Assembly: GCF_900102185.1 (NCBI RefSeq)
Contig: NZ_LT629690.1
Span: 2,046,001 to 2,110,000, forward strand
Reading direction: 5' to 3'
Origin: Terriglobus roseus
Lineage (GTDB): Bacteria > Acidobacteriota > Terriglobia > Terriglobales > Acidobacteriaceae
Length of the DNA stretch: 64,000 bases
Each line of letters begins with the position of its first letter. The first letter of the stretch is position 1. Shown here piece by piece: positions 28,203 to 58,923 of the stretch. The position numbers and the translations under genes were made by a program. The notes below the pieces were generated by a model. That model saw only the letters and a program-made list of their open reading frames with translations, did no database searches and was not told the origin of the DNA.

Positions 28203-29654
28203 TTAAAGATGTTTTTGGAACTTATAGTTCAATTCCATATAGCCATAGTTCGAATCATGCATACGCGGATACGTCCCCGCGATGACCGCCTTTCCATAAG
28301 CATGTGCATAGTAGGCGGTGAGGGAAACGCGAGGCGTCACTGCATAATCTGTGCTGATGTCGAAGAGAGACGAGAAGCTGTTGTGTCCATTCGATGGGCG
28401 GCCTGTGTATCCAAATACCTTGGAATCAAAGGCACCTCCGCCCTGATACCAGAGATCCTGGTTCGACGTGAGCTGTAGGAAATGGAGATCGCTGCGGATT
28501 TCTACTTTCTTTCCCGGAGTGTCGACCATCTGCACAAAGCTGTCGGTAGAGTTCATCAGGTTGTAGAACGGATCGCGCGCATACACTCGCGGCGTCGGAA
28601 GGACCTGAAAAAATGTGTTGTGTTTTCCATCGGCGGGATTGTTGTCGCCAGTCGAGCGGAAATAACCGCCACGCACCCACGGCATTGATGGCACAGTATT
28701 CAGTCTCAGGCCACCTTCGATCGCAATCGCTCCGGCAGAGTGATCCAACAATCCCCAGTGGCCACTTTGCCCTGCGCCCCATACCATGAAGTCCACAACC
28801 GTTTTCCCCGCAGGGATCGCAGCAACAAAATCCCCACCATAGGTCCCAATGCGAATGTTCGCATGATCCGAAGCTTTCGCTGTCGCAGAGCGATTGTCTG
28901 TCTTGGTAATCCCGGTGCGTCCGTCGTGATAGCCAAGGCCAAAGCCACGGAGTACGGCATGCTGTCCGACGGAATGAGAGTACGACGCATACTGGATATC
29001 AACGTTAAGTTCGGGGTTGGCATTCATATTGAAGACGCCTTGCGTAGCGCGACCAGCCATAGCCGTCACATCCCATGCATGGTTTCCAAGCTTAACGTCA
29101 ATACCATCAAACGATCTCTGGCCATTCGAGAATCCAAAATTACCAACGAGACGTTGTGCGACGCGGTTGGTTTGTAGCCATCGAACGGATGTATCCTTCG
29201 ACGTTCCCTCCTGTCCGTCGAAGAACTCAAAACGACCAACACGGACGGTGTCAAAGTCGTTGTGAAAGTGATAGCGAAGGTAGCCCTGCCGAAACGATGC
29301 CGCAGCGGGGTACGCATTGTTACTGTTCGCGGCGTAATACGTGCCTCCAAGTCCAAGTTGTCCTTGTGCCGCCACGGGAGAGACAGCATCGGTCGGAAGA
29401 GCCAACTCGGCGCTTTGTCCAAGGTCCAACATGTAATCCACGTTGTGTATTCGTTGCGCCAAGGAAAGACGCAGCAACGAGTCTTGGTGCCCATACACTT
29501 CGCTCGTTGGCGTCGCAGCAAACCACTGGGTCGCGTTCGTCCTTTGGCGAATCGAAACGGAGACGGTTGGCCCGCCTGTTGCCGGGGAGGACGTTTGAGC
29601 AGACAACAAGGGAGCAGAACTCGCAAGCGCGAGCACGAAGAGCGAATTCTTCAA
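28203..29654 (-). CDS. Outer-membrane alginate-export-type beta-barrel porin
   Basis: 483 aa with a signal peptide (1-19, ends LLSAQ) followed by a repetitive beta-strand protein of the alginate-export/AlgE-like type: VSVSIRQRTNATQW, DTVRVGRFEFFDGQE, FDGIDVKLGNHAWDV, RVSLTAYYAHAYGK and the final strand YMELNYKF. AGGAGA precedes the ATG. It lies directly downstream of the nitrate/nitrite transporter, so it probably provides an outer-membrane path for nitrate or another anion; that is inferred from position only. Confidence 0.8.
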   Translation of the reverse strand: MKNSLFVLALASSAPLLSAQTSSPATGGPTVSVSIRQRTNATQWFAATPTSEVYGHQDSLLRLSLAQRIHNVDYMLDLGQSAELALPTDAVSPVAAQGQLGLGGTYYAANSNNAYPAAASFRQGYLRYHFHNDFDTVRVGRFEFFDGQEGTSKDTSVRWLQTNRVAQRLVGNFGFSNGQRSFDGIDVKLGNHAWDVTAMAGRATQGVFNMNANPELNVDIQYASYSHSVGQHAVLRGFGLGYHDGRTGITKTDNRSATAKASDHANIRIGTYGGDFVAAIPAGKTVVDFMVWGAGQSGHWGLLDHSAGAIAIEGGLRLNTVPSMPWVRGGYFRSTGDNNPADGKHNTFFQVLPTPRVYARDPFYNLMNSTDSFVQMVDTPGKKVEIRSDLHFLQLTSNQDLWYQGGGAFDSKVFGYTGRPSNGHNSFSSLFDISTDYAVTPRVSLTAYYAHAYGKAVIAGTYPRMHDSNYGYMELNYKFQKHL

Positions 29655-29753: not shown

Positions 29754-31013
29754 TCAAACGGCGATCGCAGGGCTTGCCGGAACAATGACCTCGGAACTGT
29801 CCGGTGTTGGAGACATCGCTCTTCCACCCTTTCCAACCCACGTTCGTGTCCAACGTCGAGCAACAAGCCGCATCACGATCAACACCGCGATGGCGAACAC
29901 CGCATATACAGCAAAGCCTGCGGAGAAGGAACCCGTCTTCTGCTTCGAGATACCGAGGACATTGGGAAGTATGCTTCCCCCAAGTGCGCCGATCTCGCCA
30001 ATCATGCCGCCCGCAATCGCCGTGGTGAGTGGCCACCGCAACGGGACGAGCTGAAAGGTTGCGCCATTCCCAGCACCCAACGCGGCAAAGCACAACATGA
30101 AGAGAAGTGTTGTCGCCGCTAACGACGGGGATGTCGTAAGACCAAAGATGCCCGCGATGGCCACCAGAAACACGACAGAGAGCGTCGTGATTCCGCCGAT
30201 CTTATCGGACAACCAACCGCCCAACACACGTGTCGCGCTTCCCAGTAACGTCGCCATCATGGTCAAGGTTCCAGCCTCCGTCTTTGCCATGTGGAACTGC
30301 GACACAAACAATGAGGGTAGGAATGTTGCGAGCCCCAAGAAGCCGCCAAACGTGATGATGTAGATCAAATTGAAGTACCAGCCATCGGCCTCCACAAGAC
30401 ACTTGAGGTGCTGCCCTAGAGTTTGGTGCTCTTTGTCAGGTGGCTCCTTCGCAAAGATGATCATGGTTAGCAGAGGCAAGAGCATGAAAAGCGCAGCGAC
30501 GCCGTACACATTCGACCATCCGTAGACCTTCGCGAGACGCGGCGCGAAGAAGGCAGCAAGCGCTGTTCCGCTATTCCCTGCTCCCGCAATCCCCATCGCA
30601 AGGCCCTTGTATTCTTGCGGAAACCATCCTGCTCCAAGTGATAGTGCAACACCGAAGCTAGCGCCTGCGGTTCCCAATAAGACGCCCATGGCAAGCACAT
30701 TGGAGAAGGTGTGAACAAAGAAGAACCCATACATCAACGCCGCAATGATGGTCAGCATCTCGATGATGGCCGCACTCTTACGTCCGATGTACTGACCAAG
30801 CACACCTAACGGGAAGCGCATTAACGCCCCTGCCATGGTGGGGATGGAGACCATCAACCCTGTCTGTGCAGGGGAAAGATGAAACTGCTCGGTAATGAAT
30901 GGCCCCATGGCACCATTGAGGACCCAGACAGCAAAGCTGAAGTCAAAGTACAGGAACGCTGCGAAGAGAGTCGGTGGATGTCCGGAACGTAAGAACGCCT
31001 TTGCGCTGGCCAT
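29754..31013 (-). CDS. NarK/NasA-type nitrate/nitrite transporter (MFS)
   Basis: 419-aa major-facilitator protein with about 12 transmembrane helices. The nitrate-signature segments are present: AGWFPQEYKGLAMGIAGAGN in TM5 and LGAGNGATFQLVPLRW in TM11, and the N-terminal half carries the RFPLGVLGQYIGRK loop. It imports nitrate and may also move nitrite. It lies 129 bp downstream of the nitrate reductase gene on the same strand, completing the uptake plus reduction set. Confidence 0.93.
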   Translation of the reverse strand: MASAKAFLRSGHPPTLFAAFLYFDFSFAVWVLNGAMGPFITEQFHLSPAQTGLMVSIPTMAGALMRFPLGVLGQYIGRKSAAIIEMLTIIAALMYGFFFVHTFSNVLAMGVLLGTAGASFGVALSLGAGWFPQEYKGLAMGIAGAGNSGTALAAFFAPRLAKVYGWSNVYGVAALFMLLPLLTMIIFAKEPPDKEHQTLGQHLKCLVEADGWYFNLIYIITFGGFLGLATFLPSLFVSQFHMAKTEAGTLTMMATLLGSATRVLGGWLSDKIGGITTLSVVFLVAIAGIFGLTTSPSLAATTLLFMLCFAALGAGNGATFQLVPLRWPLTTAIAGGMIGEIGALGGSILPNVLGISKQKTGSFSAGFAVYAVFAIAVLIVMRLVARRWTRTWVGKGGRAMSPTPDSSEVIVPASPAIAV

Positions 31014-31142: not shown

Positions 31143-33311
31143 TTAGCGGCTGCGCTCGACGCGCACAGCACACTGTTTGAAGTTTGGTTCGCGGCTGATG
31201 GGATCGAACGCACCCAACGTAACGAGGTTGGAGTTCTGCTCCGCGAAGTGGAACGGCATGAAGACCTGTCCGGGCGCGACAATCCCGGTGATTCGCAGCT
31301 CGATGCCCTCCACTCGCGCTCGACGAGACACCAAAGCGATCCGGTCGTGCTGACGCAACGAAAGACGATCCGCATCGATCGGATTCATCTCTAACCACGC
31401 GTTGGGAACCATCCGGTCAAGCTGAGGAACAGCGCCCGTCTTGGTACGCGTATGCCAGTGCTCCACCGTACGTCCTGTATTCAGGATGAAATCGAATTCC
31501 TTATCCGGTTGCTCAGAGAATGGCAAGCACGGAACACAATGCAATTTTGCGCGTCCACCGTCATACGGAAATACGCCGTCGCGATAGAGACTCGTACCAC
31601 CCCACTGTGCGCCGCCTTGTTCTTCCAACTGGGCCCAGGTGAATGCACTGTAATCGCATAAACGTCCTGCTGATACACGCTGCCATTCCAGCCACGCATC
31701 GTGCGAAGAGATCCATCCGGAAAACAACCTCTCGCGAACACCAAGCCGCTCCGCGATGGAAAGAAAAATATCGAAGTCCGAACGTGCCTCTCCCGGAGGG
31801 GCAACGAACGCGTTCACCTTGCTGACACGACGCTCCGAGTTGGTGTAGGTTCCTTCCTTCTCGCCCCAGATCGCAGCAGGCAGTACCAGGTCGGCATAAT
31901 CCATGGTGGGAGTTGGATAGAAGCCATCCTGCACCACAACAAACTCTGCCGTAGACAATGCCTGGGTCAGCAGCTTTACATTCGGGAAACTCACAACCGG
32001 GTTTGTCGCGATGAACCATAGGGCACGGACACGCTTATCGAGCGCGGCCTCAATAATGTCTGGATAGGCAAGTCCGCGCGACTTGGGCAGTTCCTCTTCG
32101 TCGATATTCCACAGTACCGCGAGTTCCGCGCGATCCTTTGCGCTATCGAATTTGCGATATCCCGGCATACCAGAAGTAAAGCCACTCTCTCGCGTTCCCA
32201 TCGCGTTGCACTGTCCTGTAATGGAAAAAGGAGCAGATCCCAATTGCCCAATTTTTCCCGTGAGGAGTGCGAGATTGTTGATCGCTGCAACCGTGACCGA
32301 TCCTTGCGTGGAATGATTCACTCCCATCGTCCATCCGATGAAAGCGGAAGACGCAGTTCCATACAAGAAAGCGATATTCTCAATCGTCTCCACGGTAAGC
32401 CCGGTCGTTCTTGCGACCGTCTCCGGAGTGAACTCGGCAACAAAGCGCCGCAACTCGTCCAGGCCTTCAGTGTGACTCTCAAGAAAGGCCTCATCAATCA
32501 TGCCGTCGCGCAGAAGAATGTGCGCAATGCCATTCAACAACGCGATGTCCGAACGAGGTTTGACCGGTAGATGAATGTCGGCCATCATCGCCGTTTTGGT
32601 CACGCGAGGGTCGGCAACAATCAGAACCTGGCCCGGCCTCTTGCGGAGACGGTTGCACAGAATCGGATGATTGTCCGCGATGTTAGAACCAACAAGGAGA
32701 ACGACGTCTGCATGTTCCATGTCGGCATAGGAACCGGGCGGTCCATCAGAACCAAAACTGAGTTTGTAGCCCGATACTGCGGATGACATACACAGTGTGG
32801 TGTTGCCGTCGTAGTTCCGGCTGCGAAAACCGAGTTGAACTAGCTTGCCGAGCGTGAAGAACTCTTCCGTGAGCAATTGCCCCGTTCCGATCACGCCAAG
32901 TGTGTCGGAACCATACGTCCGCTGCAGCCCCGTAATACGTGCCACCATGACGTCCAGCGCTTCGTCCCACGAGATGGGTTCAAGCGGCGATCCTTTTCCA
33001 CCTCGTCGCAGCAATGGCACACGAGCTCGACCCGGTGTATCAATCATCTGGTGTTCACTCAGCCCTTTAGGGCAAAGCTTGCCAAGATTGACAGGATGAT
33101 CAGGATTGCCGCGCACCGCCACTGCCTTGCCATCCCGAGTTCCCACCAGCATCCCGCAACCGACAGAACAGTAGCCACAAGTTGTCTTCGTCCACTGGTC
33201 AGCAACGCGGGATTCTGAGATATGTCCGAAAACTGGATCGTTTCCATAGGCATATTTCTTCTTCGCGGTGTCTAGTCCCAGCGCTCTCATCACTCGCTGC
33301 GAAATCTTCAT
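31143..33311 (-). CDS. nasA: Assimilatory-type nitrate reductase, molybdopterin catalytic subunit
   Basis: 722-aa molybdopterin-guanine-dinucleotide enzyme that reduces nitrate to nitrite. The N-terminal [4Fe-4S] site is C45-x2-C48-x3-C52-x27-C80. It continues with MGD-binding blocks (GVIGTGQLLTEE, GWTMGVNHSTQG, LLTGKIGQLGS, ITGQCNAMGTRE) and ends with the molydopterin dinucleotide-binding domain (NTGRTVEHWHTRTKTG). There is no Tat signal, so it acts in the cytoplasm. Its start overlaps the stop of the upstream iron-sulfur/DmsC gene by 4 bp (ATGA), showing translational coupling. Confidence 0.92.
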   Translation of the reverse strand: MKISQRVMRALGLDTAKKKYAYGNDPVFGHISESRVADQWTKTTCGYCSVGCGMLVGTRDGKAVAVRGNPDHPVNLGKLCPKGLSEHQMIDTPGRARVPLLRRGGKGSPLEPISWDEALDVMVARITGLQRTYGSDTLGVIGTGQLLTEEFFTLGKLVQLGFRSRNYDGNTTLCMSSAVSGYKLSFGSDGPPGSYADMEHADVVLLVGSNIADNHPILCNRLRKRPGQVLIVADPRVTKTAMMADIHLPVKPRSDIALLNGIAHILLRDGMIDEAFLESHTEGLDELRRFVAEFTPETVARTTGLTVETIENIAFLYGTASSAFIGWTMGVNHSTQGSVTVAAINNLALLTGKIGQLGSAPFSITGQCNAMGTRESGFTSGMPGYRKFDSAKDRAELAVLWNIDEEELPKSRGLAYPDIIEAALDKRVRALWFIATNPVVSFPNVKLLTQALSTAEFVVVQDGFYPTPTMDYADLVLPAAIWGEKEGTYTNSERRVSKVNAFVAPPGEARSDFDIFLSIAERLGVRERLFSGWISSHDAWLEWQRVSAGRLCDYSAFTWAQLEEQGGAQWGGTSLYRDGVFPYDGGRAKLHCVPCLPFSEQPDKEFDFILNTGRTVEHWHTRTKTGAVPQLDRMVPNAWLEMNPIDADRLSLRQHDRIALVSRRARVEGIELRITGIVAPGQVFMPFHFAEQNSNLVTLGAFDPISREPNFKQCAVRVERSR

Positions 33312-34825
33312 GCGACCTCCGCGCGGCTGCCGATGAAGGTGAGGCCCATGCTAAGCGGCACAACAGACACAAAGAAGAGGTATCTGCCGATCACGACGGT
33401 TACTGTGCCTGCAAACAGCGCAAGCCAAGGCAACGGAGCATATGCGAATAGGACCGACGCTCCTGCACTTAGGAATGCCAGAGCTACCCAATAGACGAGC
33501 TGCTCACCACGTAGCAGGTTGTAGCTGGCGCGCCTCTCAAACAGGTTTGCGGAACGAAGCCGAGCAATACGGATCGATTGATTTAATCCCCACAACACAG
33601 CAAAGACCAAAACCAGGTTGCGGTGAAGCACGAATCCCCTTGTCATTACATCTGCGACAAGACTGCCGAGATAGGCAGCGGAAACGAGAAAATCAACGGG
33701 CGTATGGATCGTGTTCCACGAGGGTCTTGCTTTCACAAGATAGAGCGCGGCGCTAGCAAGCGTGCCGCACATTCCAAGCAATATGCCGCAATAAGCAAGC
33801 GGAGTTATGGCCCACTGGAATTCTCGAAGCCACGCTGCGGCTGCACATGCAGTCACACTGCCGTAGAAGAGACCGAAACACAAGACTTCGCGGCTAAGCC
33901 AGGAACGCCGCCACATGCGGATTGCGCGCCATGCATATGCAGGCCTCCCCAGATGAAACACGGAAACATTCAACGCGAATGTTGTCAGCAGCCAAAGAGA
34001 TGTCAGAACCGCTGCGCTTAGTTCATGAGCCAGCGTCATGACGGCAAGTGCTCCAAAGGACGCCTGCATCACCGTCGTCATCGCTATCAAGGATGGATGC
34101 GCATGCTCGAGGTGAATCGAGCCTGTATCTACGCGCTCCAACCAAGAAGACGACTGTTCAGGCAACGTAATGCGAGTTGTCGAGATGGTCTGTCCAGCCG
34201 CAGGCATCCCAGGCGACTCTGCAGTATGAAAATCCTTACCCCATGCTTCCTTGTTTACGATTTCAATCTGAATCGCATTTTCCGGACACGCATTCACACA
34301 TGCAGGCTCTCGTCCATCCAGCAGACGACCACGACACATGTCACATTTCCCCACCACTCCACGCTCCGCATTGAACTGCGGAACGCTATAGGGGCAATTC
34401 CACACACAGTATTGACAACCGATGCATGCATCCGTTGAATGCAACACAATCCCCGTGAGCGGATCTTTGGTATACGCATTGACTGGACAACCGCGCAGAC
34501 AGTCCGCACTGAGACAGTGATTGCAGCCCATCGAAAGATAAGTGCGCTGCGTGTTCGGATAGACGCCGCCCTCCAGTTCGCCAACACGTCGCCACTGGAT
34601 ATGCGCCGGGTTGCCATTCTGCTCGTTACACGCCACCTCACACGAACGGCAGCCGATGCACTTCGTCATATCGAAGTGGAAGCGATATTGCTCTCCTGCC
34701 TCAAGCTGCCGCGATGGAATCAGAGCCTGAGCAAGCTCTGGTGACGCGCCATTTGCGACGAGCGTCATTCGCACCAAATCGGCGCTCTCTGCTTCCATCG
34801 CAATTTCTTGAAGAGGAAGAGGCAT
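33308..34825 (-). CDS. Fused DmsB-like iron-sulfur protein and DmsC-like membrane anchor
   Basis: 505 aa in two parts. Residues about 50-200 are a four-cluster ferredoxin domain of the DmsB/NrfC type: CIGCRSCEVAC, CNHCLSADCLRGC, CIGCQYCVWNC and CDMCRGRL..ACVNAC. Residues about 245-500 are a DmsC/YnfH-type quinol-oxidising anchor with eight predicted helices. It would pass electrons from the quinol pool to the nitrate reductase encoded next (overlap 4 bp). That is a respiratory-style electron path in an operon that otherwise looks assimilatory. The fusion of two normally separate subunits is unusual but the frame is clean. Confidence 0.9.
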   Translation of the reverse strand: MPLPLQEIAMEAESADLVRMTLVANGASPELAQALIPSRQLEAGEQYRFHFDMTKCIGCRSCEVACNEQNGNPAHIQWRRVGELEGGVYPNTQRTYLSMGCNHCLSADCLRGCPVNAYTKDPLTGIVLHSTDACIGCQYCVWNCPYSVPQFNAERGVVGKCDMCRGRLLDGREPACVNACPENAIQIEIVNKEAWGKDFHTAESPGMPAAGQTISTTRITLPEQSSSWLERVDTGSIHLEHAHPSLIAMTTVMQASFGALAVMTLAHELSAAVLTSLWLLTTFALNVSVFHLGRPAYAWRAIRMWRRSWLSREVLCFGLFYGSVTACAAAAWLREFQWAITPLAYCGILLGMCGTLASAALYLVKARPSWNTIHTPVDFLVSAAYLGSLVADVMTRGFVLHRNLVLVFAVLWGLNQSIRIARLRSANLFERRASYNLLRGEQLVYWVALAFLSAGASVLFAYAPLPWLALFAGTVTVVIGRYLFFVSVVPLSMGLTFIGSRAEVA

Positions 34826-34830
34826 AGGTG

Positions 34831-36573
34831 TTAGTACACGTCCCGGTGATAGCGGTTTTCGTCATGCAGCGCGGAAACATATTCCTGTGCTGCCTCATTT
34901 GTTAGGTTGCCGTGCATCGACACAATCCGATGCAGTGCGACATCCACATCCTTCGCCATACGACTCGCATCGCCACAGACGTACAAGGACGCACCATCAT
35001 TCAGCCATCGAAATAGCTCGGCGCCGGATTCAAGCATTCGATCCTGCACATACACTTTGTGCGCCTGGTCACGAGAGAACGCAGTATCGAAACGAGTCAG
35101 ATGGCCGTCGTCAACGAAGGACTTCATCTCGCAGCAATACAGAAAGTCCGTCTCTGCGCTGCGCTCTCCGAAAAACAACCAATTCTTCCCGGTATGCCCA
35201 AGTGCGCGACGCTCATGAAGAAATGCACGGAAGGGTGCAACACCCGTTCCGGGACCAATCATGATGATTGGGGCCTCGGAATTCTTCGGTAGACGAAAGC
35301 GCTTGTTGGGATGCAGATAAATCGGCACTCGGGCGCCGATCTCCATTCTCTGTCCCAGCATCGTGGACGCCACACCACCCCGGTCACGGCCGTGCGCGGT
35401 GTAGTTCACGACCCCAATTGTGCAGTGCAGCTCCCGCCCATGCGCAGTGGGACTAGACGAGATGGAATACAGTCGAGGCGTAAGCCGTGGCAAAAGTTCG
35501 ACCAGTTCGGCCGCGTTCGAAAGCACTCCTGGATAAGCATGCAGAAGATCAATCAACCCACGCCCATAAAGGTATGTCTCCAGTTCCCCCGTCTCTGCAA
35601 TGAGAAGCGTGGAAAGCGTCTGACATTCGGCCTTCTCTGCAAACCGTTGGACTACTTTGCGCGTCAACTTCGTGATTTGAAGATGATGCCGAAGGAGCTG
35701 TTCTACTGTGAGTGGTCCCGACTTAGGAAGAATGGCCGTATCACTCGGTGAAAAACTGAGTAGCTCGAGAATCTCATCCACAAGCGCGGGATCGTTCTCA
35801 GCCAACACACCACATGCATCCCCGGCTTCGTACTGCAGCTCCGCGTCCGTCAAATCAAATCCCACATGCACGGTTTGTTTGCTCGATGAGGGATGGGTCA
35901 ACAGACGCTTATCAACCAGCGGTGCATGATATGGATTTTCACGTGTATGCGTGAGATTCGCGGCAGCAGGAGAGGTGGTGACCTGTGCCGCCTCGCTCGA
36001 CTTCGGCCCGAAGTCACAGAATGCCTTGAGAAACTGCGAACTCCATGCACTGAATGCCGTATCGACATCCAAGTCACTCTCGACGCGTGCCGTGATGCGA
36101 GAGGCTCCGAGAGAGTTCAATCGATCGTCTAGTTCGATTCCAAACTGGCAGAAGTGCTCATACGCACGATCGCCAAGACAGAAGACTGCGTAACGAAGTG
36201 CTTGCAAACGGGGAGCATTGTCTGAGAAGAGAGCATCTCGAAAAACGCATGCATTCTCAGGAGGCTCTCCGTCGCCGTAGGTGCTGGCAAAGAACAATGC
36301 GTACGTCTCTTGTGCCAGCGCCGACAACGATAAGCTTTCCACTGATTGCACCTTCGGTGCATGTCCGGCTTCCTTAAGAAGCTTGGACATTTTCTTGGCA
36401 AGCCGCTCCGCCGTACCGCTCTGCGACGCGAAATAGACACTCACACGAAAGCTCACCGGCGGCTCCGTGGAGAGGGGCTTAGGGAACAAGTCAGCCAGTA
36501 ACTTGTTGAGCCACGCTCGCTGTTCCGCGCTGAAGGGTGCATCTTCAGGAATGAATGGTGTCACGACTTTCAT
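34831..36573 (-). CDS. NADPH diflavin reductase, CysJ-like
   Basis: 580 aa. Residues about 42-190 are a flavodoxin-like FMN domain (VYFASQSGTAERLAKK, FFASTYGDGEPPENA, VFCLGDRAYEHFC). The rest is a CysJ/P450-reductase-type module with FAD motif RLYSISSSP, connecting helices, and NADPH site GPGTGVAPFRAFLHERR. It should move electrons from NADPH to the partner oxidoreductases, most likely the siroheme nitrite reductase whose stop overlaps its start (36570-36573). The C-terminus DRYHRDVY resembles the CysJ end (…RYVRDVY). Confidence 0.92.
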   Translation of the reverse strand: MKVVTPFIPEDAPFSAEQRAWLNKLLADLFPKPLSTEPPVSFRVSVYFASQSGTAERLAKKMSKLLKEAGHAPKVQSVESLSLSALAQETYALFFASTYGDGEPPENACVFRDALFSDNAPRLQALRYAVFCLGDRAYEHFCQFGIELDDRLNSLGASRITARVESDLDVDTAFSAWSSQFLKAFCDFGPKSSEAAQVTTSPAAANLTHTRENPYHAPLVDKRLLTHPSSSKQTVHVGFDLTDAELQYEAGDACGVLAENDPALVDEILELLSFSPSDTAILPKSGPLTVEQLLRHHLQITKLTRKVVQRFAEKAECQTLSTLLIAETGELETYLYGRGLIDLLHAYPGVLSNAAELVELLPRLTPRLYSISSSPTAHGRELHCTIGVVNYTAHGRDRGGVASTMLGQRMEIGARVPIYLHPNKRFRLPKNSEAPIIMIGPGTGVAPFRAFLHERRALGHTGKNWLFFGERSAETDFLYCCEMKSFVDDGHLTRFDTAFSRDQAHKVYVQDRMLESGAELFRWLNDGASLYVCGDASRMAKDVDVALHRIVSMHGNLTNEAAQEYVSALHDENRYHRDVY

Positions 36574-38357
36574 GCGCCCACCTCACTGAAGCGTTCGACC
36601 TTGCAAAAGCCACGCAACTCCCTGATAGTGTGCCGACCGCAGAACTCCAAGAACGACTCTCCCTGGACGGCTTGTTCCATGTACTGCTTCATGATGTTGT
36701 GCAGCGCGGATTGGACTTCTTTATAAGGCAACCCGGGAAATAGCTCTCGAGCCAGCGCTTGATCGTTGTCAGCACCACCGCCCACGCTCACCTGATAGCC
36801 GGGCTCGCCACCGATCTTCACTCCCATCAAACCGATATCGCCAATGTAGTGTTGTGCACAGGAGTGAGAGCAACCGGTGACGTGGAGGTTGATCGGCTGA
36901 AGAACCGGAAACGTTGCATCAAGTGAAGTTGCAAGTTCAAGAGCATGTCCTTTGGTGTCAGTCGCTGCGAAACGACATCCACGACTTCCTGTGCATGCCA
37001 CCGTACCGCTCAACACACGACCTCCTTCAACTTCGAGTCCGGCATTTCGAAGAGCTTCACGAGCCGCATCTAAGTTCTGCGTTGTGATGTTCGGCAGCAG
37101 CAGGTTTTGCCAGACGGTCAGGCGAATTTCTCCCGATCCATACCGATCGGCGACATCGGCAAGTGCGCGCGCTTGACCAACGGGAAGCCAACCCACAGGA
37201 ACAACCACTCCGATGTAGTGCAATCCCACTTGCGGTTGTGCATGGATGCCAAGATGGGCTGTACGGTCAATCGCATTCCGCGCCTCAGACTCTTGTGCCG
37301 AGATCCGTACGATTGGAAATGTCAGTTTCCTCTCTGTCTCTTCAAGAAAACGACCTGTCCCCCACTTGTCGATCAGGTACTTTAAACGAGCCTTTTTACG
37401 GTCGGTTCGATCACCATGTTCTGCAAAGACACGCACCATGGCGGCTGCAACAGCAACCAATTGGTCCGGCCGCAACAGCAAACCACAGTCGGATGCGAAC
37501 TGCCGGTGCCCCGTGATCCCGCATAGCAACACGCGAAAGTAAACACCAGAGGGGACAGACTTTCCTTCCGCGATACGAACAGCAAGAAAGCCGATGTCGT
37601 TTGTATCTGCGAGTGTGCTAATCGTGCCGCCACCATCAAATGCGATATTGAATTTGCGCGGCAGCCCGAACATATCGCGAGAGTTGAGGATGTAGGACTG
37701 GAGCGCGTTCGCATACGGCCTCACGTCGATTAGTTCTGCAGCATCAATCCCCGCAAGTGGAGATGCCGTGATGTTCCGGATGTTGTCCGCACCTGCTCCC
37801 TGTGATGTCATACCAAGGGCTCGCACTGCATTCAAAACATCAACGATAGATCGCGGGGCAAATTCTCGAATCTGGATTCCGGCACGTGTCGTGATGTCGA
37901 GACGGCCGCAACCAAATTGCTCTGCGATATCCGCCAGCCCTCTTAACTGATCGGTGCTTACAATTCCGCCCGGTGCGCGGAGACGCATCATGAAACTATC
38001 CTGCGCTGGAGCTACATGAAACAATCCATGGAACTTGAAGCGATAGCGCAACTCAGCATTGGGAACTTTGTCTTCCGCCGCATGCTCGAGCAATTCATCC
38101 CACAGATCCAAAGGATTGGATTCATACTTCCAGCGTTCTTCCGCGCATAAGTCTTCTACGGGTGTGTTGAAGAACGTTGGAGCATCCGCCAGATTCGGTC
38201 CACCAAGATTCGGATCGGCACTGAATTGTCCCGAACCGACCTGTCCCACATAGGGATAGTTTTGAGCGACCGCAGCGAAAAAGCCCTGCAGATAGGCCTT
38301 TTGCTCCGACAAGAACTCTCCGGAGGCAATGATTTCAGGTGCTTGAACCTCTGCCAT
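36570..38357 (-). CDS. nirA: Siroheme nitrite reductase (NirA-type)
   Basis: 595 aa from the ATG at 38357; a GTG six codons earlier also opens the frame, but AGGAAGAG lies just before this ATG. It reduces nitrite to ammonium using a coupled siroheme/[4Fe-4S] centre. The cluster ligands are C455-x5-C461 and C496-x3-C500 (ACTGSRGCRFA; TGCSHSCAQHYIGDIGL). Two pseudo-repeats of the ferrite-reductase domain are visible (GLFHVAPAQDSFMMRLRAPGG; GLHYIGVVVPVGWLPVGQ). It is first in the run with the CysJ-like diflavin reductase, DmsBC fusion and nitrate reductase. A sulfite reductase role is possible but context favours nitrite. Confidence 0.9.
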   Translation of the reverse strand: MAEVQAPEIIASGEFLSEQKAYLQGFFAAVAQNYPYVGQVGSGQFSADPNLGGPNLADAPTFFNTPVEDLCAEERWKYESNPLDLWDELLEHAAEDKVPNAELRYRFKFHGLFHVAPAQDSFMMRLRAPGGIVSTDQLRGLADIAEQFGCGRLDITTRAGIQIREFAPRSIVDVLNAVRALGMTSQGAGADNIRNITASPLAGIDAAELIDVRPYANALQSYILNSRDMFGLPRKFNIAFDGGGTISTLADTNDIGFLAVRIAEGKSVPSGVYFRVLLCGITGHRQFASDCGLLLRPDQLVAVAAAMVRVFAEHGDRTDRKKARLKYLIDKWGTGRFLEETERKLTFPIVRISAQESEARNAIDRTAHLGIHAQPQVGLHYIGVVVPVGWLPVGQARALADVADRYGSGEIRLTVWQNLLLPNITTQNLDAAREALRNAGLEVEGGRVLSGTVACTGSRGCRFAATDTKGHALELATSLDATFPVLQPINLHVTGCSHSCAQHYIGDIGLMGVKIGGEPGYQVSVGGGADNDQALARELFPGLPYKEVQSALHNIMKQYMEQAVQGESFLEFCGRHTIRELRGFCKVERFSEVGA

Positions 38358-38751
38358 GGCAACTCTTCCTCGCACTGCATCAAGTAGGCGAGCCCAGAGT
38401 CAAAGATTCGGAGTGGGTCAGCGGCACAAGCTTCGAGAACACGCGGACGCACACTCAATCGCGAATCGAGTGACATCTGGGCTCATCGTGGAGCTTGTTT
38501 CGTAACGCTGGAACCGGCGCACCTTGGGGCCAGTCAAAAGAAGGAAGGAAGCTGTCCGGCAGTCATGGCAGGACGTACTTCAATACGCGAAGTATGACAT
38601 GACACGTTCCGAACCGCAATGGGAAAGATTCCTAACCATCGCCAAGGATCATGTTCTGGGCCGGCACAGAATGCAGTTCGAACACGTTACACTCAAGAAA
38701 CTTCGGCAGTTTTCTGTTTTAACCGCTGCCCATTCTCTTTGGGAGTAATGC
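38358..38751. promoter_or_regulatory. Divergent control region between nitrite reductase operon and HemD-GAF-ANTAR gene
   Basis: 394 bp. On the minus strand this is a long potential leader for the nitrite reductase mRNA, the kind of place where ANTAR proteins act. It holds an imperfect 21-bp inverted repeat at 38452-38472 (arms CACTCAAT / ATCGAGTG, one G-T pair) and a second at 38576-38594 (TACTTC / GAAGTA). I looked for the paired hexaloop hairpins and a terminator used by known ANTAR systems and could not establish them by eye. Confidence 0.5.
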
Positions 38752-40395
38752 ATGCGTCATGCCAGCTTCGATGGTCTGCGAGTGCTATCGCTTGAGACCC
38801 GTCGCGCCCGCGAAGTCGAAAAGCTGATCCGCACGTATAACGGCGACCCCATCGTAGTGTCCGCGATGCGAGAGATTCCCCTCGAATCGAATACCGATTG
38901 CTTCGCATTCGGGGAACGTCTACTCAACGGCGACTTCGATCTCCTAATCTTTCTGACAGGGATCGGGGTCACCAAACTCCTCCAGACTTTAGAGACCAGG
39001 TATTCACAGGGCGCAATCCTGGAGCAATTCCGAAAACGTGAAGTGGTCACGCGTGGAGTGAAGCCTGTTGCCGTTTTACGGGAGCTTCAGGTGCCCGTGT
39101 CCGCGTCGACTGAGGAACCCAGCACATGGCATGAAGTGCTTGCACTGCTCGATTCGCAGTATGGGCAGCAGCTCGGCGGGTTTCGCGTTGCGGTACAGGA
39201 ATACGGCGCAACCAATCCGGAATTCATCGCGGAGCTGGTTGGTCGTTGCGCAGAGGTTACAAAGGTTCCCGTATATCAATGGGGCCTGCCACTTGATCTC
39301 GAACCATTGCGCGATGCAGTACGCCGCCTTTGCGACGGTGAAATTGACGTTGTCTTGTTCATGACCGCAGTACAGGTGATTCATCTGTTCCAAATCGCTG
39401 ATGAATTGGGTTTACGCGAGATGCTGAGTATCGCCTTGCAGCAAGCCATGGTCGTTTCGATTGGACCCACTACCACTGAGGAGTTGAAGCATTACGGCGT
39501 TCAGCCAGACTTCGAGCCTTCGCGTCCTCGCATGGGCTTCATGGTGAATGAAGCTGCACAATACGCCAAGAAGCTTCTGGCCGAGAAGAGATCAGTGCAA
39601 ACGTCGTCTATCGCCGCACCCAACGTGAGACCGCGTCCACCCTACCGAGGGAGCGTGCAACAGGTCGCACCTTCTACTTCTGCGATGTCTGGATTCCGAG
39701 ACGGCTTGGCTCCGTTTGACGTGCTGCAGGAAATTAGCAGTCATATCGCATCTACGGACCCACTTCACGTCACACTGTCGCGTATCGTGACGCTCGTGTC
39801 CATCGTCATTCCATGTGATTCATGCTTTCTGTACACACTGGAAGATGACAAACTTGTCTTACGCGCCTCACGGAATCCCCATACGGAAGAACTCGACCAT
39901 CTCAATCTCTCCATCGGCGAAGGCGTTACCGGTTGGGTTGCAGAGCATCGTGAAACCGTTGCTATTCCGGAACGAGCAAGTGAAGACCCTCGCTTCAGTG
40001 CGTTCGTCAGTCTGCCGGAGGACCGCTTCGAAGCGATGCTGTGCGCACCGGTAAGCTGCGCAAATCGCGTCGTCGGAGTTCTGAATGTGCAGCACAGGCA
40101 GCCCTATCAACATAGCGAGTTGGAGCAGAGAATGCTCTCCACAGTTGGCATTCTCGTAGGAGCAGAAATTGAACGCGCTCGTCTCGAAACGGAGAACTCT
40201 GTCCTCACAAACAGGCTCGAAACTCGGAAGCTAGTCGATCGCGCCAAAGGCATCTTGCAGCGTGATCTGAATCTCTTCGAGGACGACGCATACCGAAACA
40301 TGCAGCGAGAAAGCCGGCAGCGAAGAAAGTCCATGCGCGAAATCGCTGAAGCAATTCTCTTGGCTGACAGCTTGAGACGCGACAAGAACGTTTAA
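38752..40395 (+). CDS. HemD-GAF-ANTAR fusion, probable nitrate-locus regulator
   Basis: 547 aa with three parts. Residues about 8-270 match uroporphyrinogen-III synthase (HemD): LRVLSLETRRAREVEKL, FDLLIFLTGIGV, VPVYQWGLPLDLEPLRDAV, IDVVLFMTAVQV, VSIGPTTTEELKHYG. Residues about 321-475 are a GAF domain (FDVLQEISSHIA, NLSIGEGVTGWVAEHRE, AMLCAPVSCANRVVGVLNVQ). Residues about 478-540 are an ANTAR RNA-binding domain (RKLVDRAKGILQRDLNLFEDDAY, IAEAILLADSL). ANTAR proteins such as NasR and NasT relieve termination in nitrate-assimilation leaders. It is divergent from the nitrite reductase operon. GGGAG lies 7 nt before the ATG. The HemD part may sense a siroheme precursor rather than catalyse. Confidence 0.88.
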   Translation: MRHASFDGLRVLSLETRRAREVEKLIRTYNGDPIVVSAMREIPLESNTDCFAFGERLLNGDFDLLIFLTGIGVTKLLQTLETRYSQGAILEQFRKREVVTRGVKPVAVLRELQVPVSASTEEPSTWHEVLALLDSQYGQQLGGFRVAVQEYGATNPEFIAELVGRCAEVTKVPVYQWGLPLDLEPLRDAVRRLCDGEIDVVLFMTAVQVIHLFQIADELGLREMLSIALQQAMVVSIGPTTTEELKHYGVQPDFEPSRPRMGFMVNEAAQYAKKLLAEKRSVQTSSIAAPNVRPRPPYRGSVQQVAPSTSAMSGFRDGLAPFDVLQEISSHIASTDPLHVTLSRIVTLVSIVIPCDSCFLYTLEDDKLVLRASRNPHTEELDHLNLSIGEGVTGWVAEHRETVAIPERASEDPRFSAFVSLPEDRFEAMLCAPVSCANRVVGVLNVQHRQPYQHSELEQRMLSTVGILVGAEIERARLETENSVLTNRLETRKLVDRAKGILQRDLNLFEDDAYRNMQRESRQRRKSMREIAEAILLADSLRRDKNV

Positions 40396-41134: not shown

Positions 41135-42310
41135 ATGGCGAGACGACCGAAGGAAATTCGAGGCATCAAGTTCCGACCAGATAGAGGCACCTGGGAGGCC
41201 CAATACAAGGCTGACGGGAGCCGTGTCCGGAAGAACTTCACGGATCGGCAAGCAGCCCTCGATTGGTTAGAGACAGCCAAAGGGCTACGCCATAAAGAGG
41301 GTGTCGCTTCCCTGCCTTCCAGTGCGCTGGAGCCGATCCTCACGGTAGCTGAGAAGAAAGAGTTGCAGAAGTATCGAGCTGACACCTTGCTGCTCGGTGA
41401 ACTCTGCGATCAGTACCTTGCCCATATCCAGAACCCGAACAACCCGGAACGTCCGAAAGACCAGGTGAATCCGCCGCAGCGTGTTGGGGCTATCAAGGAT
41501 GCTTTCGGTCATCGTCCTGCCGTGTCTCTGGAGCCATATGAAATCAAGGATTGGCTCATCTCGCTCGGTCGTGCTGCTGCGACGTTGAATCGCTACAAGT
41601 CCACGCTATCGGCGATCTATACCTACGCGAAGGAACGGAAGTTCGTCGAGTCGAACCCCTGTCGTGATGTTGCACACTTTGCCGTCACACTCGGGATTCC
41701 CCGATGGATGAGCGATGCCGAAGAGGATCGACTCCGGGCCGTTCTGGAACGCTGGATTGCAGAGACGCCCGAAGACTACGAGATGACCCGCCTGGAGCTG
41801 CGCGAGCATCCGAACGAAATCACTGTTGGCTCACAAACCGGCATGCGCAAAGGCAATCAGTACGCGCTCACATGGCCGGATGTGAACTTCAAGCTGCGCC
41901 TCATTACTCTGCCTGACACGAAGACCGGCGTACCTCATACGGTTCCGATGACAGATGACGTATTCGAAGCGCTGAAGGATCAGCAAGACATTCAAGCCCG
42001 GATGCAGGAACTACGCGGTCACAAAGAGACCAAGACGATGAAGCTCGATGGTAGGGTGTTCACCATTCGAGAGAACCGTGAATGGTTTGAGAAGGCAAAG
42101 AGAGAAGCTGGCATCACTGATTTGGGATGGCATCAACTGAGCCGCCACACGGCTGGCTCCCGCCTCGCAGCGAATAATGCGAATCAAAGAGTGATTCAGG
42201 AAGTGCTAGGGCACAAGACGATTGCCATGAGCGCCCGGTATACACATCTCAGCAAGGCACACGTTTCGAGCGAGATGAATGCGGCGTTGTCCCGTAGCCG
42301 TAAAGCCTAG
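41135..42310 (+). CDS. int: Tyrosine recombinase / phage-type integrase
   Basis: 391 aa; catalyses integration and excision between attP and the tRNA-Glu site. It has an N-terminal arm-binding part (about 1-65), a SAM-like core-binding domain (about 85-175) and a catalytic domain with the active-site set: Arg near 238 (TGMRKGNQYAL), His-x-x-Arg near 332-335 (WHQLSRHTAG), His near 358 (LGHKTIAMS) and the nucleophile Tyr near 369 (ARYTHLS). It lies 180 bp inside the left att repeat and reads inward. Confidence 0.95.
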   Translation: MARRPKEIRGIKFRPDRGTWEAQYKADGSRVRKNFTDRQAALDWLETAKGLRHKEGVASLPSSALEPILTVAEKKELQKYRADTLLLGELCDQYLAHIQNPNNPERPKDQVNPPQRVGAIKDAFGHRPAVSLEPYEIKDWLISLGRAAATLNRYKSTLSAIYTYAKERKFVESNPCRDVAHFAVTLGIPRWMSDAEEDRLRAVLERWIAETPEDYEMTRLELREHPNEITVGSQTGMRKGNQYALTWPDVNFKLRLITLPDTKTGVPHTVPMTDDVFEALKDQQDIQARMQELRGHKETKTMKLDGRVFTIRENREWFEKAKREAGITDLGWHQLSRHTAGSRLAANNANQRVIQEVLGHKTIAMSARYTHLSKAHVSSEMNAALSRSRKA

Positions 42311-42772: not shown

Positions 42773-45538
42773 CTATAAACCCAATCCGTATCCCATACTC
42801 CGCTCGACCACATGCTCTGAAGCTGGCCCGATCTTCTGTGGTGCTCCAGGCATAGCCAACTCTGGCTGGAGTGCGCTCTTATGCGAAACATCGTGGCTCA
42901 ACGCCTGCACCAGCTTCTCGCGGTCGTTGGTGAATATCTGCGCGTCCCATTGTCCGCGTGATACAGAGACGTAGGCCATGCGGTGATTCAGCAGGTCGTT
43001 GGCTCCAAGCTCTGTGTCTGCATGAATCAACACACGCTCAGCCGTCAGCCCCTGGCTTGAATGGCTCGTGACCGCATAGCCGTGATCGATATGCGGAAAG
43101 CGGTTCGTCACCACCTCAACACTGCGGCCACTCTCCAGCTTCAGACGCATTGCGCCATCCGTGCCAATCTGTTCAATGTTTGCGAGCTCTCGATTCGCAA
43201 CCTTCAAGTCTTGATTGGGTGCCGTGAACTGAACACGATCTCCGATAGAGAATGTTTTCTCTTCGGCTCTGTAGACAGAAACGCCCATCTGACGACGCGG
43301 ATCGTATGTAGCCTGCTCACCGTTGCCACGCATCACCGTGAGCAGATTGTTCTGTCCATCCACGGCTACCACTCGCGCGTACTCACCTTTGGCGATGCCG
43401 GTTTCCTTCGATGTCCGTGAATAGTGCAGCACATCATTGGGCTGATACCTCTGCGCCCAGCTACGATCTGCTCCAGTCAACTCCTGTCTAGGCACAAGCG
43501 TCTGGATCGTATGCTCTCGCTTGCTGACCTTGCCCTTCTCCTGTAGCTCACGATGAATCGCAGTGTTGATCTCGGCACGGGAGCGGTTGTCGGGTGACAC
43601 AACGAGTGTGTTTTCCGGCGAAGCGGCATACTCTCTCGCGATTGCAGAGATGCGAGCTTCGCGCCCAATCACTTCATGCACGCGGCCTTGGATGTCGAGG
43701 TTTTCGATAGCCGCTGCAACCTGGCCGCGCGCCAGCAGTTCGACGACCTCTTTCAATTCCGGATCGCGTTGGCGAAGAATCTCATCCAGCTTGACCGTGT
43801 GCATCCCGGCTTCCTGAAGCTGGTCGAACGGACGCCCCGCCTCTACGCCCTCATGCTGGCGCACGTCGCCCACTAACAACACTCGGTCATTGCGATGAAG
43901 ACTAGAAAGAAACTCGTGCATTTGCCGAGTGGATGCGAGCGAGGATTCGTCCAGCACGAATAGACGCTTCTCGCCCGCATCAGGCCTTTCACCTCTGGCA
44001 AGATGATGCTGAAGCGTCGATGTTGTCATTCCAGCTTCAGCCAACTTCTGCGCTGCACGACTGGTCGGGGCAAAGCCGGTCACTCGATAGCCTTCGGACT
44101 CGGCCCCTTCACGAACGACAGCAAGCGTCGTGGTCTTGCCCGCTCCCGCCACCCCATCAAGGCCGATGATCTTCTCGCGCGTAACGAAGATGTCATCCAC
44201 TGCGGCAAGCTGAGACTTGCTCAACTCTGGATGACGATCTTCAGTCTGGATTCGCAGAATCGGAGAGACGAGCATCGTGCTTTCGGAGCGACCTTCATTG
44301 TTCTTCTGCACAAAGCCAAGCATTTCCCTTTCCAGTCGAACCATCTCAGAGGTGGTGTACTGTGGTGCAGCTCTTCCATCAGAACGCTCGACCTTACGAA
44401 ACTCTCCATGCCGTACTCTCTGGTCGAACTCTTGGCGTACCTGGCTGTAAGTAGCACGGCCCATGCTGCGATCCATTGCCGCTTGCAGGATGCTCCGCTC
44501 ATCCTGCACGGCTGAACGCTCGAAGACATGATTGCGCGAATAGGTGATCGACTGCTGGGCCGTCTTCTCTGGTCGCTCCTCGATTCCCTGTTCCCGTCCT
44601 TGCGCCTTTGCCACTACCTGCCCCGGTTGGTTGCCAAATTTAGCCGCGAGATCACGATGTCGTTCTAAGACCTCGTCACGCGAAAGCAGGTCTTTTCCAT
44701 CTCGCGTTCGATGAGCCGCAACCTGCGCTGCTCCTGCACCGTCGCGGCCAATCTCGTGGAGATGTTCTTTGATCTGAGCACGCCGTGGGCTTGATGCTTC
44801 CAGATACTCTTGCGAATACCCCTTGATCTCCGGCTGTCCGTGTACGCCACGCTCAATCTCATAACCAAGCACCTGCAACCTAATGGCAAGCTCGGAACGA
44901 TACACGCTCGTCGCATAGTGCTGCGACTGGAAGAGGCTTCGTTCTTGTAAGGCTCGCGTCTGTCCGTTGTCGCGCTCTGTGATGTTGAAGATCACTGCGT
45001 GCGTGTGAAGCTGAGGAGCAGCGTATCCATCAACCGGTCTCGCGGTGTCATGTTCAAAAGTGGCTGCAACAAATTTGCCCGTCGTTTCCGGTGCGTGAAT
45101 ATTGCCGATACGAGCTTGGGTATACCGCTCCAGTTCATGCAGTGCAACGCGAACGCTTTCACGATGGGCATCACGCACACGCTCATCCCCACCAACTAGC
45201 GCGGTGATCGATACAGACTTGGGAGCGGAAAACGTAGCGTCCCACCCTGCACGATGTTCTGCGCTTGTGATCTGCTTGCCATACTCGTTCTCATACGTTC
45301 TTGCAGGCTGGTGCTTCACAAGCTGCGCTGCACTCACTGGATGTTGGCCTTCACTCAGCAGAGCGAACTGTCCATCTGCGACGGAGCTTTGCAAACCCCA
45401 TTCACGAGCAAGCTGTCCTTGCCACTCGCTGTGCCCCTGCCGATCACGGCTCCAGTAGTTCTGCTTCTCAGACGTAAACTCTCGCGCATGGTATGTGCGG
45501 GCTTGATTGGCCGATAGCGCTTTGGAGAGAGTCAACAT
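42773..45538 (-). CDS. MobF-family relaxase/helicase (TrwC/TraI type)
   Basis: 921 aa from the ATG at 45538; a TTG 13 codons upstream also opens the frame, but MobF proteins begin near 'MLTLSKAL' and GAGG precedes this ATG. The relaxase domain (about 1-290) has the candidate nicking tyrosines Y16 and Y28 and the metal triad H163, H178, H180 (PQLHTHAVIFN). The C-terminal part is a RecD-like 5'-3' helicase with Walker A GVAGAGKTTT and Walker B VLDESSLAS. It nicks oriT and unwinds the transferred strand. This is the main transfer gene of the element. Confidence 0.95.
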   Translation of the reverse strand: MLTLSKALSANQARTYHAREFTSEKQNYWSRDRQGHSEWQGQLAREWGLQSSVADGQFALLSEGQHPVSAAQLVKHQPARTYENEYGKQITSAEHRAGWDATFSAPKSVSITALVGGDERVRDAHRESVRVALHELERYTQARIGNIHAPETTGKFVAATFEHDTARPVDGYAAPQLHTHAVIFNITERDNGQTRALQERSLFQSQHYATSVYRSELAIRLQVLGYEIERGVHGQPEIKGYSQEYLEASSPRRAQIKEHLHEIGRDGAGAAQVAAHRTRDGKDLLSRDEVLERHRDLAAKFGNQPGQVVAKAQGREQGIEERPEKTAQQSITYSRNHVFERSAVQDERSILQAAMDRSMGRATYSQVRQEFDQRVRHGEFRKVERSDGRAAPQYTTSEMVRLEREMLGFVQKNNEGRSESTMLVSPILRIQTEDRHPELSKSQLAAVDDIFVTREKIIGLDGVAGAGKTTTLAVVREGAESEGYRVTGFAPTSRAAQKLAEAGMTTSTLQHHLARGERPDAGEKRLFVLDESSLASTRQMHEFLSSLHRNDRVLLVGDVRQHEGVEAGRPFDQLQEAGMHTVKLDEILRQRDPELKEVVELLARGQVAAAIENLDIQGRVHEVIGREARISAIAREYAASPENTLVVSPDNRSRAEINTAIHRELQEKGKVSKREHTIQTLVPRQELTGADRSWAQRYQPNDVLHYSRTSKETGIAKGEYARVVAVDGQNNLLTVMRGNGEQATYDPRRQMGVSVYRAEEKTFSIGDRVQFTAPNQDLKVANRELANIEQIGTDGAMRLKLESGRSVEVVTNRFPHIDHGYAVTSHSSQGLTAERVLIHADTELGANDLLNHRMAYVSVSRGQWDAQIFTNDREKLVQALSHDVSHKSALQPELAMPGAPQKIGPASEHVVERSMGYGLGL

Positions 45539-45854
45539 GCGTAGAAGCCTCAACACATGAACTGCAAAGTCTCGCAACTGCTTGCTGCATAGCGTAACCC
45601 CTAACGTGGAAATAAGGGGCGCAATTCTAAGATTTATTTTTATGCACGATCATGCGTTTACCCCTATGGATATTGGTCGAATGCGCTATTCGCATTGAAT
45701 TAGATAGCCAATTAGAGAATGAACGGAGGGGCGATAAGTGATCGAATTTGACCTTGAATCATCATCTCTACGCAAGCAATTCTTCGTGCTTATTCCATCT
45801 GTTTAGTGGAGAGCATTGCGGCCTGTGAGCAGTCGCTCGGAAGTGCGTTTATAG
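45539..45854. other. Candidate origin of transfer (oriT) region
   Basis: 316 bp between the relaxase gene and the membrane-protein gene, AT-richer than its surroundings. It contains a 6-bp perfect inverted repeat AATGCG-CTATT-CGCATT at 45680-45696, nested within ATTGG (45672-45676) and CCAAT (45708-45712). A CCCCT/AGGGG pair also occurs near 45598-45619. MobF oriTs carry inverted repeats beside the nic site and usually lie next to the relaxase gene. No nic site can be assigned from sequence alone. Confidence 0.5.
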
Positions 45855-58840: not shown

Positions 58841-58894
58841 GGTTTTTGGTAGCGATATCGGGGCTCGAACCCGAACTCTTCGCCTTGAGAGGGC
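58841..58894 (-). repeat. Right attachment site within tRNA-Glu
   Basis: The 54-bp partner of 40903-40956. It overlaps the 3' part of the functional tRNA gene and its downstream CCA. Mismatches are at 58858 and 58874, the two members of one T-stem pair (T-A here, C-G at the left). Confidence 0.9.
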
Positions 58895-58923
58895 GACGTG
58901 TTAACCAGTTACACCATATCGCC
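58847..58923 (-). tRNA. tRNA-Glu (anticodon CTC), with encoded CCA
   Basis: Read on the minus strand: acceptor GGCGATA pairing with TATCGCT (one G-T pair), D stem GTGT/ACAC, anticodon stem TCGCC/GGCGA with loop CTCTCAA (anticodon CTC, codon GAG), T stem TCGGG/CCCGA with loop TTCGAGC, discriminator A, then CCA. The mature gene is 58850-58923 plus the CCA. Its 3' half is the attR of the mobile element and remains fully functional in sequence. Confidence 0.95.

Follow-up and report, generated by a model that had tools for sequence, protein, structure and literature searches.

The window analyzed here is a 64,000-nucleotide stretch of the Terriglobus roseus genome (contig NZ_LT629690.1, positions 2,046,001 to 2,110,000). 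It carries a gene that the initial annotation had read as a fusion of a uroporphyrinogen-III synthase-like (HemD) domain, a GAF sensor and an RNA-binding ANTAR domain, divergent from a siroheme-dependent nitrite reductase gene. Both statements were borne out: the three domains lie in one chain, each well above its Pfam cut-off, and the divergent neighbour is the siroheme-type nitrite reductase gene nirA (Table 1). In the fusion protein, a NIT domain was not matched at an E value of 0.01 and a Trans_reg_C winged-helix (wHTH) domain was not found by Pfam. The regulator holds the only ANTAR match in the genome (one contig, 4.85 Mb) and one of its two HEM4 matches, the other scoring 182.7 bits.

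Table 1. Regulator gene, nirA leader and nitrate operon of the window
Feature	Position	Strand	Basis
HemD-GAF-ANTAR regulator, 547 aa, ATG start	38752..40395	+	ORF and Pfam
HEM4 (uroporphyrinogen-III synthase-like) domain, aa 22-265	38815..39546	+	Pfam, 98.8 bits (cut-off 27.5)
GAF domain, aa 338-473	39763..40170	+	Pfam, 58.3 bits (cut-off 22.4)
ANTAR domain, aa 485-536	40204..40359	+	Pfam, 60.6 bits (cut-off 27.3)
Sigma-70-like promoter of the nirA operon: TTGCGG (38619-38614), 17 bases, CATACT (38596-38591)	38591..38619	-	Read by eye
Hairpin P1, loop CAAGGT (C1, G4), C-C mismatch next to the closing pair	38516..38531	-	Leader scan, alignment, folding
Hairpin P2, GCTC-CACGAT-GAGC, loop C1, G4, A5	38481..38494	-	Motif search, alignment, folding
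Competing helix, 5' arm GAGCCCAGA, overlapping the P2 3' arm	38476..38484	-	Duplex search, folding
Competing helix, 3' arm TCTGGGCTC, 14 bases ahead of the nirA start as listed and not followed by a T-run	38390..38398	-	Duplex search, folding
nirA, siroheme-type nitrite reductase; listed with a GTG start, possible alternative ATG at 38361	36570..38375	-	NCBIfam NF007126, 770 bits (cut-off 523)
CysJ-like flavoprotein reductase	34831..36573	-	Domain matches
DmsB-like Fe-S protein fused to a DmsC-like membrane part	33308..34825	-	Domain matches
Molybdopterin oxidoreductase, NasC/Fdh-alpha-like; probable assimilatory nitrate reductase by context	31143..33311	-	Below every model's cut-off
NarK-like nitrate/nitrite transporter	29754..31013	-	TIGR00886, 241.6 bits (below cut-off 311.7)
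Alginate_exp-family outer-membrane porin; next same-strand gene after narK	28203..29654	-	Domain match

A structure model of the regulator was built with AlphaFold from 24 aligned fusions (pLDDT 77, pTM 0.45). It has a low-confidence joint at aa 284-334 and an uninterrupted long helix at aa 456-506 that runs ahead of and into the ANTAR domain. Among the 50 Foldseek matches shown, the N-terminal part retrieved uroporphyrinogen-III synthases, with a Thermus enzyme the best, and the middle part GAF-containing proteins, with PtsP GAFs first. ANTAR structures were absent among these best 50, and the ANTAR assignment stands on the sequence match. By sequence as well as by fold, the nearest solved relative of the GAF domain is that of a PtsP-type phosphotransferase. 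Its resemblance to the GAF domains of PtsP and NifA hints, weakly, at a nitrogen-status signal, a step that draws on general knowledge of such proteins.

Judged by its content, the gene set opposite the regulator appears to serve nitrate assimilation, although two of its products, the molybdoenzyme and the transporter, score below the curated cut-offs. The DmsB-DmsC-like fusion between the flavoprotein and molybdoenzyme genes (33308-34825) would be an unusual electron route for such a set. In the alignment of the leaders, a TTGC..TATACT sequence similar to the nirA promoter of the window was seen in several relatives; it is less clear in L039 and L040.

The architecture, for which a search of other genomes had been proposed, recurs in 37 other loci, and the reading frame is therefore not a chance ORF. 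When 396 genomes of the phylum were searched at the protein level, the full-length fusions among the matches listed were confined to the window's own family; 17 fusion loci came from a search of genome contigs. A tree was built of 38 fusions, including that of the window and the near-duplicates L071 and L035/L036/L037/L074, with L082 omitted. In 27 of the 38 the gene is divergent from and adjacent to nirA, so that the linkage to nitrate/nitrite genes on which the initial annotation had staked its reading holds in most relatives. The other 11 (L044-L050, L073, L079, L083 and L091) are without nitrate genes nearby in the fetched flanks of about 10 kb or less, and they nest among the linked ones: eight (L045-L048, L050, L079, L083 and L091) form a single group (support 1.0), L049 groups with L041/L042/L081 (support 0.98), and L073 falls inside the window's branch. 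With midpoint rooting, linkage to the nitrate/nitrite operon is thus apparently ancestral. On sequence grounds, we regard both the architecture and its association with the nitrate locus as real and conserved.

Some of these loci showed further features. The one neighbour tested in the group of eight, in L079, is an SPFH/Band 7 protein, and it has look-alikes in several other members. L040, a contig labelled as a Rhodanobacteraceae metagenome-assembled genome, has the fusion together with nirA, reflecting either a binning error or transfer. In L059 (7540-9503) and L060 (7466-9429), narK survives as pieces in two frames next to a truncated HemD fragment, and regulator and nitrate pathway seem to decay together there.

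The HemD domain belongs to a lineage of its own. A strong HEM4 match of 167-233 bits, labelled canonical HemD from its score, was present in 27/27 genomes tested, 23 of these had a second match of 99-134 bits at the place of the fusion-type lineage, and G321 had a fragment. Proteins of this lineage take three forms: a stand-alone domain, a fusion to uroporphyrinogen decarboxylase and the GAF-ANTAR fusion. The second form was seen in L109 (9060-11087), a HemD-HemE protein from another acidobacterial family and the one protein tested. When plasmids were searched for relatives outside the phylum, the nearest were Deinococcus genes, 34-38% identical, that overlap nirD or lie next to it; a Thermus oshimai relative is flanked by a nitrite/sulfite reductase gene on one side and by siroheme genes on the other, and the actinobacterial relatives L151 and L154 combine HemD with a Trans_reg_C wHTH domain, which is the build of NnaR. 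A tree of 26 HemD sequences set the fusion, Thermus, Deinococcus and NnaR-type domains apart from two canonical HemD sequences with a support of 1.0, with the branching order inside the non-canonical lineage partly weak. The parallel to NnaR drawn in the initial annotation thus gained a phylogenetic footing, the two HemD domains being of the same lineage.

The excerpts of PMC11162112 and PMC6277429 report that the HemD domain of NnaR is inactive in Streptomyces coelicolor, and they suggest sensing of hydroxymethylbilane or uroporphyrinogen III. In our view, the fusion is another case of this HemD lineage being used as a sensor, here probably with an RNA output, and we infer that its HemD domain reads a siroheme precursor (again hydroxymethylbilane or uroporphyrinogen III). 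It could instead be an active uroporphyrinogen-III synthase serving the siroheme supply of NirA, with GAF-ANTAR as the regulator and the fusion merely co-producing both. The settings of the Thermus oshimai and Deinococcus genes would suit an enzyme, as would the fusion to uroporphyrinogen decarboxylase in L109 and the many HemD residues that are invariant across the 24 aligned fusions. Since the stronger HEM4 gene is also present in every genome tested, however, the fusion HemD domain is probably not needed for biosynthesis, and its NnaR counterpart is the one reported inactive; we consider a working synthase unlikely. As for NnaR itself, it shares with the fusion the role of a nitrate/nitrite regulator, and Mycobacterium smegmatis has another HemD paralog elsewhere, as the fusion genomes have a second HEM4 gene; unlike the fusion, NnaR has a DNA-binding wHTH output and neither GAF nor ANTAR, as far as the excerpted sources describe it.

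The initial annotation had proposed an RNA output with the nitrite reductase leader as its site. Candidate sites are present: hexaloop hairpins with C at loop position 1 and G at position 4 (C1/G4) lie in the nirA leader and, in the branch without the window, also on the divergent strand. The P2 string was spotted by eye in the aligned leaders and then searched for, and its consensus, GCTC-CNNGNN-GAGC, was found in exactly one copy per leader in 28/28 linked leaders. The base after the loop G is A in 26 of them and T in L040 and L089. The stem pairs of P2 are invariant, so covariation is uninformative for this hairpin.

A second C1/G4 hexaloop hairpin, P1, was sought within 75 bases upstream of P2 in 23 leaders, a set that omits the near-duplicates L071, L036, L037 and L074 (all with P1) and L086 (a miss). 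When at least four pairs were required and one mismatch was allowed, it was detected in 18/23 leaders; 300 dinucleotide shuffles, which overstate the independence of leaders sharing ancestry, averaged 2.7 and never exceeded 8. With at least five pairs, the count was 13/23 against a shuffle mean of 0.96. Hexaloops of the A..G class were near chance in the same 75 bases (2/23, shuffle mean 1.6), and the G..G class also exceeded the shuffles, by far less (6/23 versus 1.7). The five misses were inspected by hand: L034 has a hairpin with a weaker stem, L042 has U1, L078 and L082 have eight-base loops, and L090 has a seven-base loop. Over all leaders, P1 is present in 22/28, and the pair of P1 and P2 occurs in both deep branches. 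A seven-base-loop hairpin further upstream, present in the window's branch, was at first taken as P1 and was dropped for the C..G hexaloop beside P2.

The pairing of P1 was followed in an alignment of 20 leaders, selected for a readable P1 (L078, L082, L086 and L090 were dropped), which favours constancy of its loop: G4 is found in 20/20 and C1 in 19/20, and the remaining loop positions vary more. Both sides have changed in five of the seven P1 pairs, although versions slid out of register as controls still yield up to four such pairs. For P1 and P2 jointly, 84.8% of the cells are paired, and sliding by 1-3 columns lowers this to 46.4% or less. The two outer P1 pairs are broken in 10/20 and 11/20 leaders, at the position adjoining the closing pair 12/20 have A-U and 8/20 no pair, and further pair types did not exceed shuffles in the P1/P2 alignment (102 of 500). 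Canonical A1/G4 pairs numbered two in the 28 nirA leaders (L080 and L086), both away from P2, and a search of Rfam with positions 37800-38900 gave two weak matches far under their cut-offs.

Downstream of P2, a competing helix would take up its 3' arm. In 23/23 leaders, the best downstream duplex has its start at the first or second base of the P2 3' arm, a position counted without a control. By mononucleotide shuffles, the helix is individually unusual in six (the window, L072, L038, L039, L040 and L089; P ≤ 0.015) and not unusual in L034, L041, L076, L078, L081 and L082 (P above 0.5), with a mean z of -0.94 over the 23. The predicted probability of P2 averages 0.15 in the full leaders versus 0.35 with the downstream part shuffled, and opening of P2 by the downstream part reaches the 0.02 level or below in 10/23. 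P2 remains at 0.55-0.96 in the full leaders of L034, L076, L077 and L090, and it is weak even in a short prefix (0.03-0.11) in L037, L076, L078 and L085. In the window, P2 belongs to the best fold of prefixes of up to 144 bases and is absent from that of longer ones, where forcing it costs 6.4 kcal/mol. In these folding models, the window's P2 behaves as a hairpin rescued by a protein would.

None of the 23 leaders had a U-tract within 20 bases past the competing helix, and a classical intrinsic terminator is thus not evident. The ANTAR output might accordingly be post-transcriptional, on translation or mRNA stability, with the hairpins serving as its site and no terminator involved. In actinobacteria, according to the excerpts of PMC8164766, predicted terminators are seldom found downstream of ANTAR RNAs, and about 37% of these RNAs overlap a ribosome site or start codon; the window's competing helix, for its part, ends close to the listed nirA start. 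In 12/23 leaders, however, the helix ends at least 70 bases from the first aligned nirA codon (which may be some bases intragenic), far from a ribosome site, and we hold a post-transcriptional output to be possible but somewhat unlikely.

A covariance model of the leader was searched in 40 genomes, with 127 candidates scored per genome. Matches with E values below 0.01 were obtained in 16 of the 17 genomes with a linked fusion, each at the nirA leader (G241 gave 0.154 there), and in none of the remaining 23 genomes, whose best value was 0.041; as most linked leaders had trained the model, this split is largely by construction. In the window's own genome, the nirA leader scored 1.3e-6 and the next match 0.97. 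A P2 string at 1761190 of that genome, near Sua5/TrmH-like genes, was rejected as a target (model E 0.97). Leaders outside the training set were also matched, namely, those of L078, L082, L086 and L090 (6.7e-5 to 0.021) and the nirA leader L148 (0.061), which is the best match in the genome of the unlinked fusion L050. In the loci and genomes searched, targets of unlinked fusions and of GAF-ANTAR proteins without HemD were not found below E 0.01. A YTGA-flanked P2 pattern fitted 1/60 genomes of the family and was too strict, the window itself not fitting.

Of the 33 matches that the same model gave on 39 loci, 16 were at nirA leaders, 13 were next to these leaders but on the opposite strand, and 4 were elsewhere. 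The 13, none of them in training, account for most of the 17 weaker matches and fall at one place (E 0.068-2.2). All have C1, G4 and A5 in the loop, and nine have the stem GACAC/GTGTC. A second C..G hexaloop follows in L041 and L081, and seven-base loops follow in several others. These divergent hairpins are found in 13/16 linked loci of the branch without the window and are missing from L042, L089 and L090. An ATG-started ORF of at least 100 amino acids between nirA and the regulator is absent in L042 and L089 and present in L090, and L043 has the hairpin without such an ORF. Of three intervening genes tested, two encode beta-barrel-like proteins (Phenol_MetA_deg in L041, Alginate_exp in L088) and that of L077 had no match; the window's porin gene sits after narK instead of between nirA and the regulator. 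From these few cases, the porin would stay under the RNA element wherever it is placed. Before the regulator, no C1/G4 hairpin was found in the window, and those in a few of the 11 loci of its branch are weak, scattered and unconserved.

Inverted repeats near promoters could also be DNA operators of another regulator, the ANTAR domain acting elsewhere; the GACAC-N6-GTGTC form of the divergent site is operator-like, and the arms of P2 are constant. Yet the constant part common to the sites is their centre, C1 and G4, whereas the arms differ among P1, P2 and the divergent site, the P1 arms change in paired fashion, and P1 and P2 belong to the transcribed leader, past the likely promoter. We therefore regard operators as improbable.

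The ANTAR domain was then compared with that of EutV, whose contacts with RNA are described in the excerpts of PMC8934654: the flipped-out G4 stacks on Tyr164, and Arg142, Lys149 and Glu160 also contact it; A1 is without specific contact; and Met172 plugs the loop, M172A abolishing RNA binding. By alignment, from which the numbering is derived, R492, K499, E510 and Y514 of the window correspond to EutV R142, K149, E160 and Y164, and these G4-contacting residues are kept in the window and 38/38 other fusions. The counterpart of R175 is kept in all fusions read except L049. At the position of Met172, the window has R522, and Arg is found in 38/38 other fusions as well; the window further differs from EutV in Q518 for Arg168, Q523 for Asn173 and S527 for Arg177. 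GAF-ANTAR proteins without HemD have Arg at the Met172 position in 9/12 and Met in L053, L061 and L062, and in the alignments shown Met also occupies this position in Rv1626 and NasR.

As the excerpts of PMC3369931 and PMC7496416 have it, A1/G4 is the consensus for the RNAs of EutV, NasR and AmiR, and in those of PMC8164766 it is conserved at more than 50% in actinobacteria. The recognition code of the fusions would therefore differ from that of the characterised ANTAR systems, with C1 for A1 and Arg for the essential Met, and we propose that the Arg form of ANTAR goes with C1 loops. Only one side of this pairing is visible, as targets of the GAF-ANTAR proteins without HemD were not found in the searched loci. 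Given the M172A result, the Arg form may have a different target or none at all, and ANTAR could have lost canonical RNA binding, the fusion acting through protein contacts; the changes at EutV positions 168, 173 and 177 point the same way. Against this, the residues that contact G4 are retained throughout, that of R175 nearly so, and hexaloops with G4, the base that stacks on Tyr164, are conserved next door, which makes a loss of binding quite unlikely. With both A1 and the Met plug lacking, the fusion seems to work like an ANTAR system, yet it is not a standard member.

Taken together, these data led us to favor, with moderate confidence, a one-component regulator of nitrate assimilation, whose ANTAR dimer would bind C1-N-N-G4 hairpins and hold P2 for read-through; binding, signals and direction of effect are putative. 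The HemD domain, drawn from a lineage of siroheme and nitrite reductase operons, would read a siroheme precursor, and the GAF domain would supply a second signal, perhaps nitrogen status. Jointly they would set the C-terminal coiled coil and the ANTAR dimer. The active dimer would grip the hexaloops of the nascent nirA leader, P1 and then P2, and, in the branch without the window, a hairpin on the divergent transcript as well. While P2 is held, its 3' arm would be kept from downstream pairing and the operon would be read on, an antitermination step.

Among the ANTAR regulators of nitrate genes, NasT has a receiver domain. NasS-NasT likewise exerts RNA-binding ANTAR control over assimilatory nitrate genes; unlike the one-piece fusion, it consists of two proteins in a nitrate/nitrite-dependent complex (PMC3795266, in excerpt). 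NasR of Klebsiella is, like the fusion, a one-component ANTAR regulator of a nitrate assimilation operon, with two leader hexaloops (nasF), but its sensor is NIT instead of HemD-GAF, its loops are A1/G4 instead of C1/G4, and its second hairpin overlaps a terminator (PMC7496416 and PMC3369931, in excerpt). EutV, a REC-ANTAR protein with a dual hexaloop RNA, shares the G4-contacting residues and paired G4 hairpins with the fusion and, in the excerpted account, differs in its A1/G4 loops and essential Met172, in place of which the fusion has C1/G4 loops and Arg.

More tentatively, and as a possibility that we would not yet call probable, the fusions may constitute a family, evolved alongside the DNA-binding NnaR from one HemD lineage, of RNA-binding nitrate regulators in which a retired siroheme-enzyme domain serves as a tetrapyrrole sensor, nirA is gated on both cofactor supply and nitrogen status, and the C1/G4-Arg code is used. 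What the analysis chiefly adds to the initial annotation is the RNA element, well supported by sequence, whose altered loop code is matched by an altered residue in the protein. No account of the HemD-GAF-ANTAR architecture was found in the open-licence literature, a scope outside which most subscription journals lie. After NnaR, the fusion is a second instance of a HemD-lineage domain coupled to the control of nitrate/nitrite use, and comparing the two would make it possible to test what NnaR senses through its HemD domain. The fusion would also extend the ANTAR RNA code, as searches demanding A at loop position 1 would miss the C1/G4 class, and it offers defined protein-RNA pairs for testing a joint change of the loop-plugging residue and loop position 1.

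Beyond the regulator, the window takes on the look of a mobile element. A phage-type integrase gene (41135-42310, plus strand) lies directly downstream of the regulator and is followed by a gene for a TrwC relaxase/helicase (42773-45577, minus strand). An 861-amino-acid protein with T5orf172 and ResIII-like domains (52103-54688) is a possible restriction or defence gene near this putative element, and ARAGORN found one tRNA in the window, tRNA-Glu at 58847-58923.
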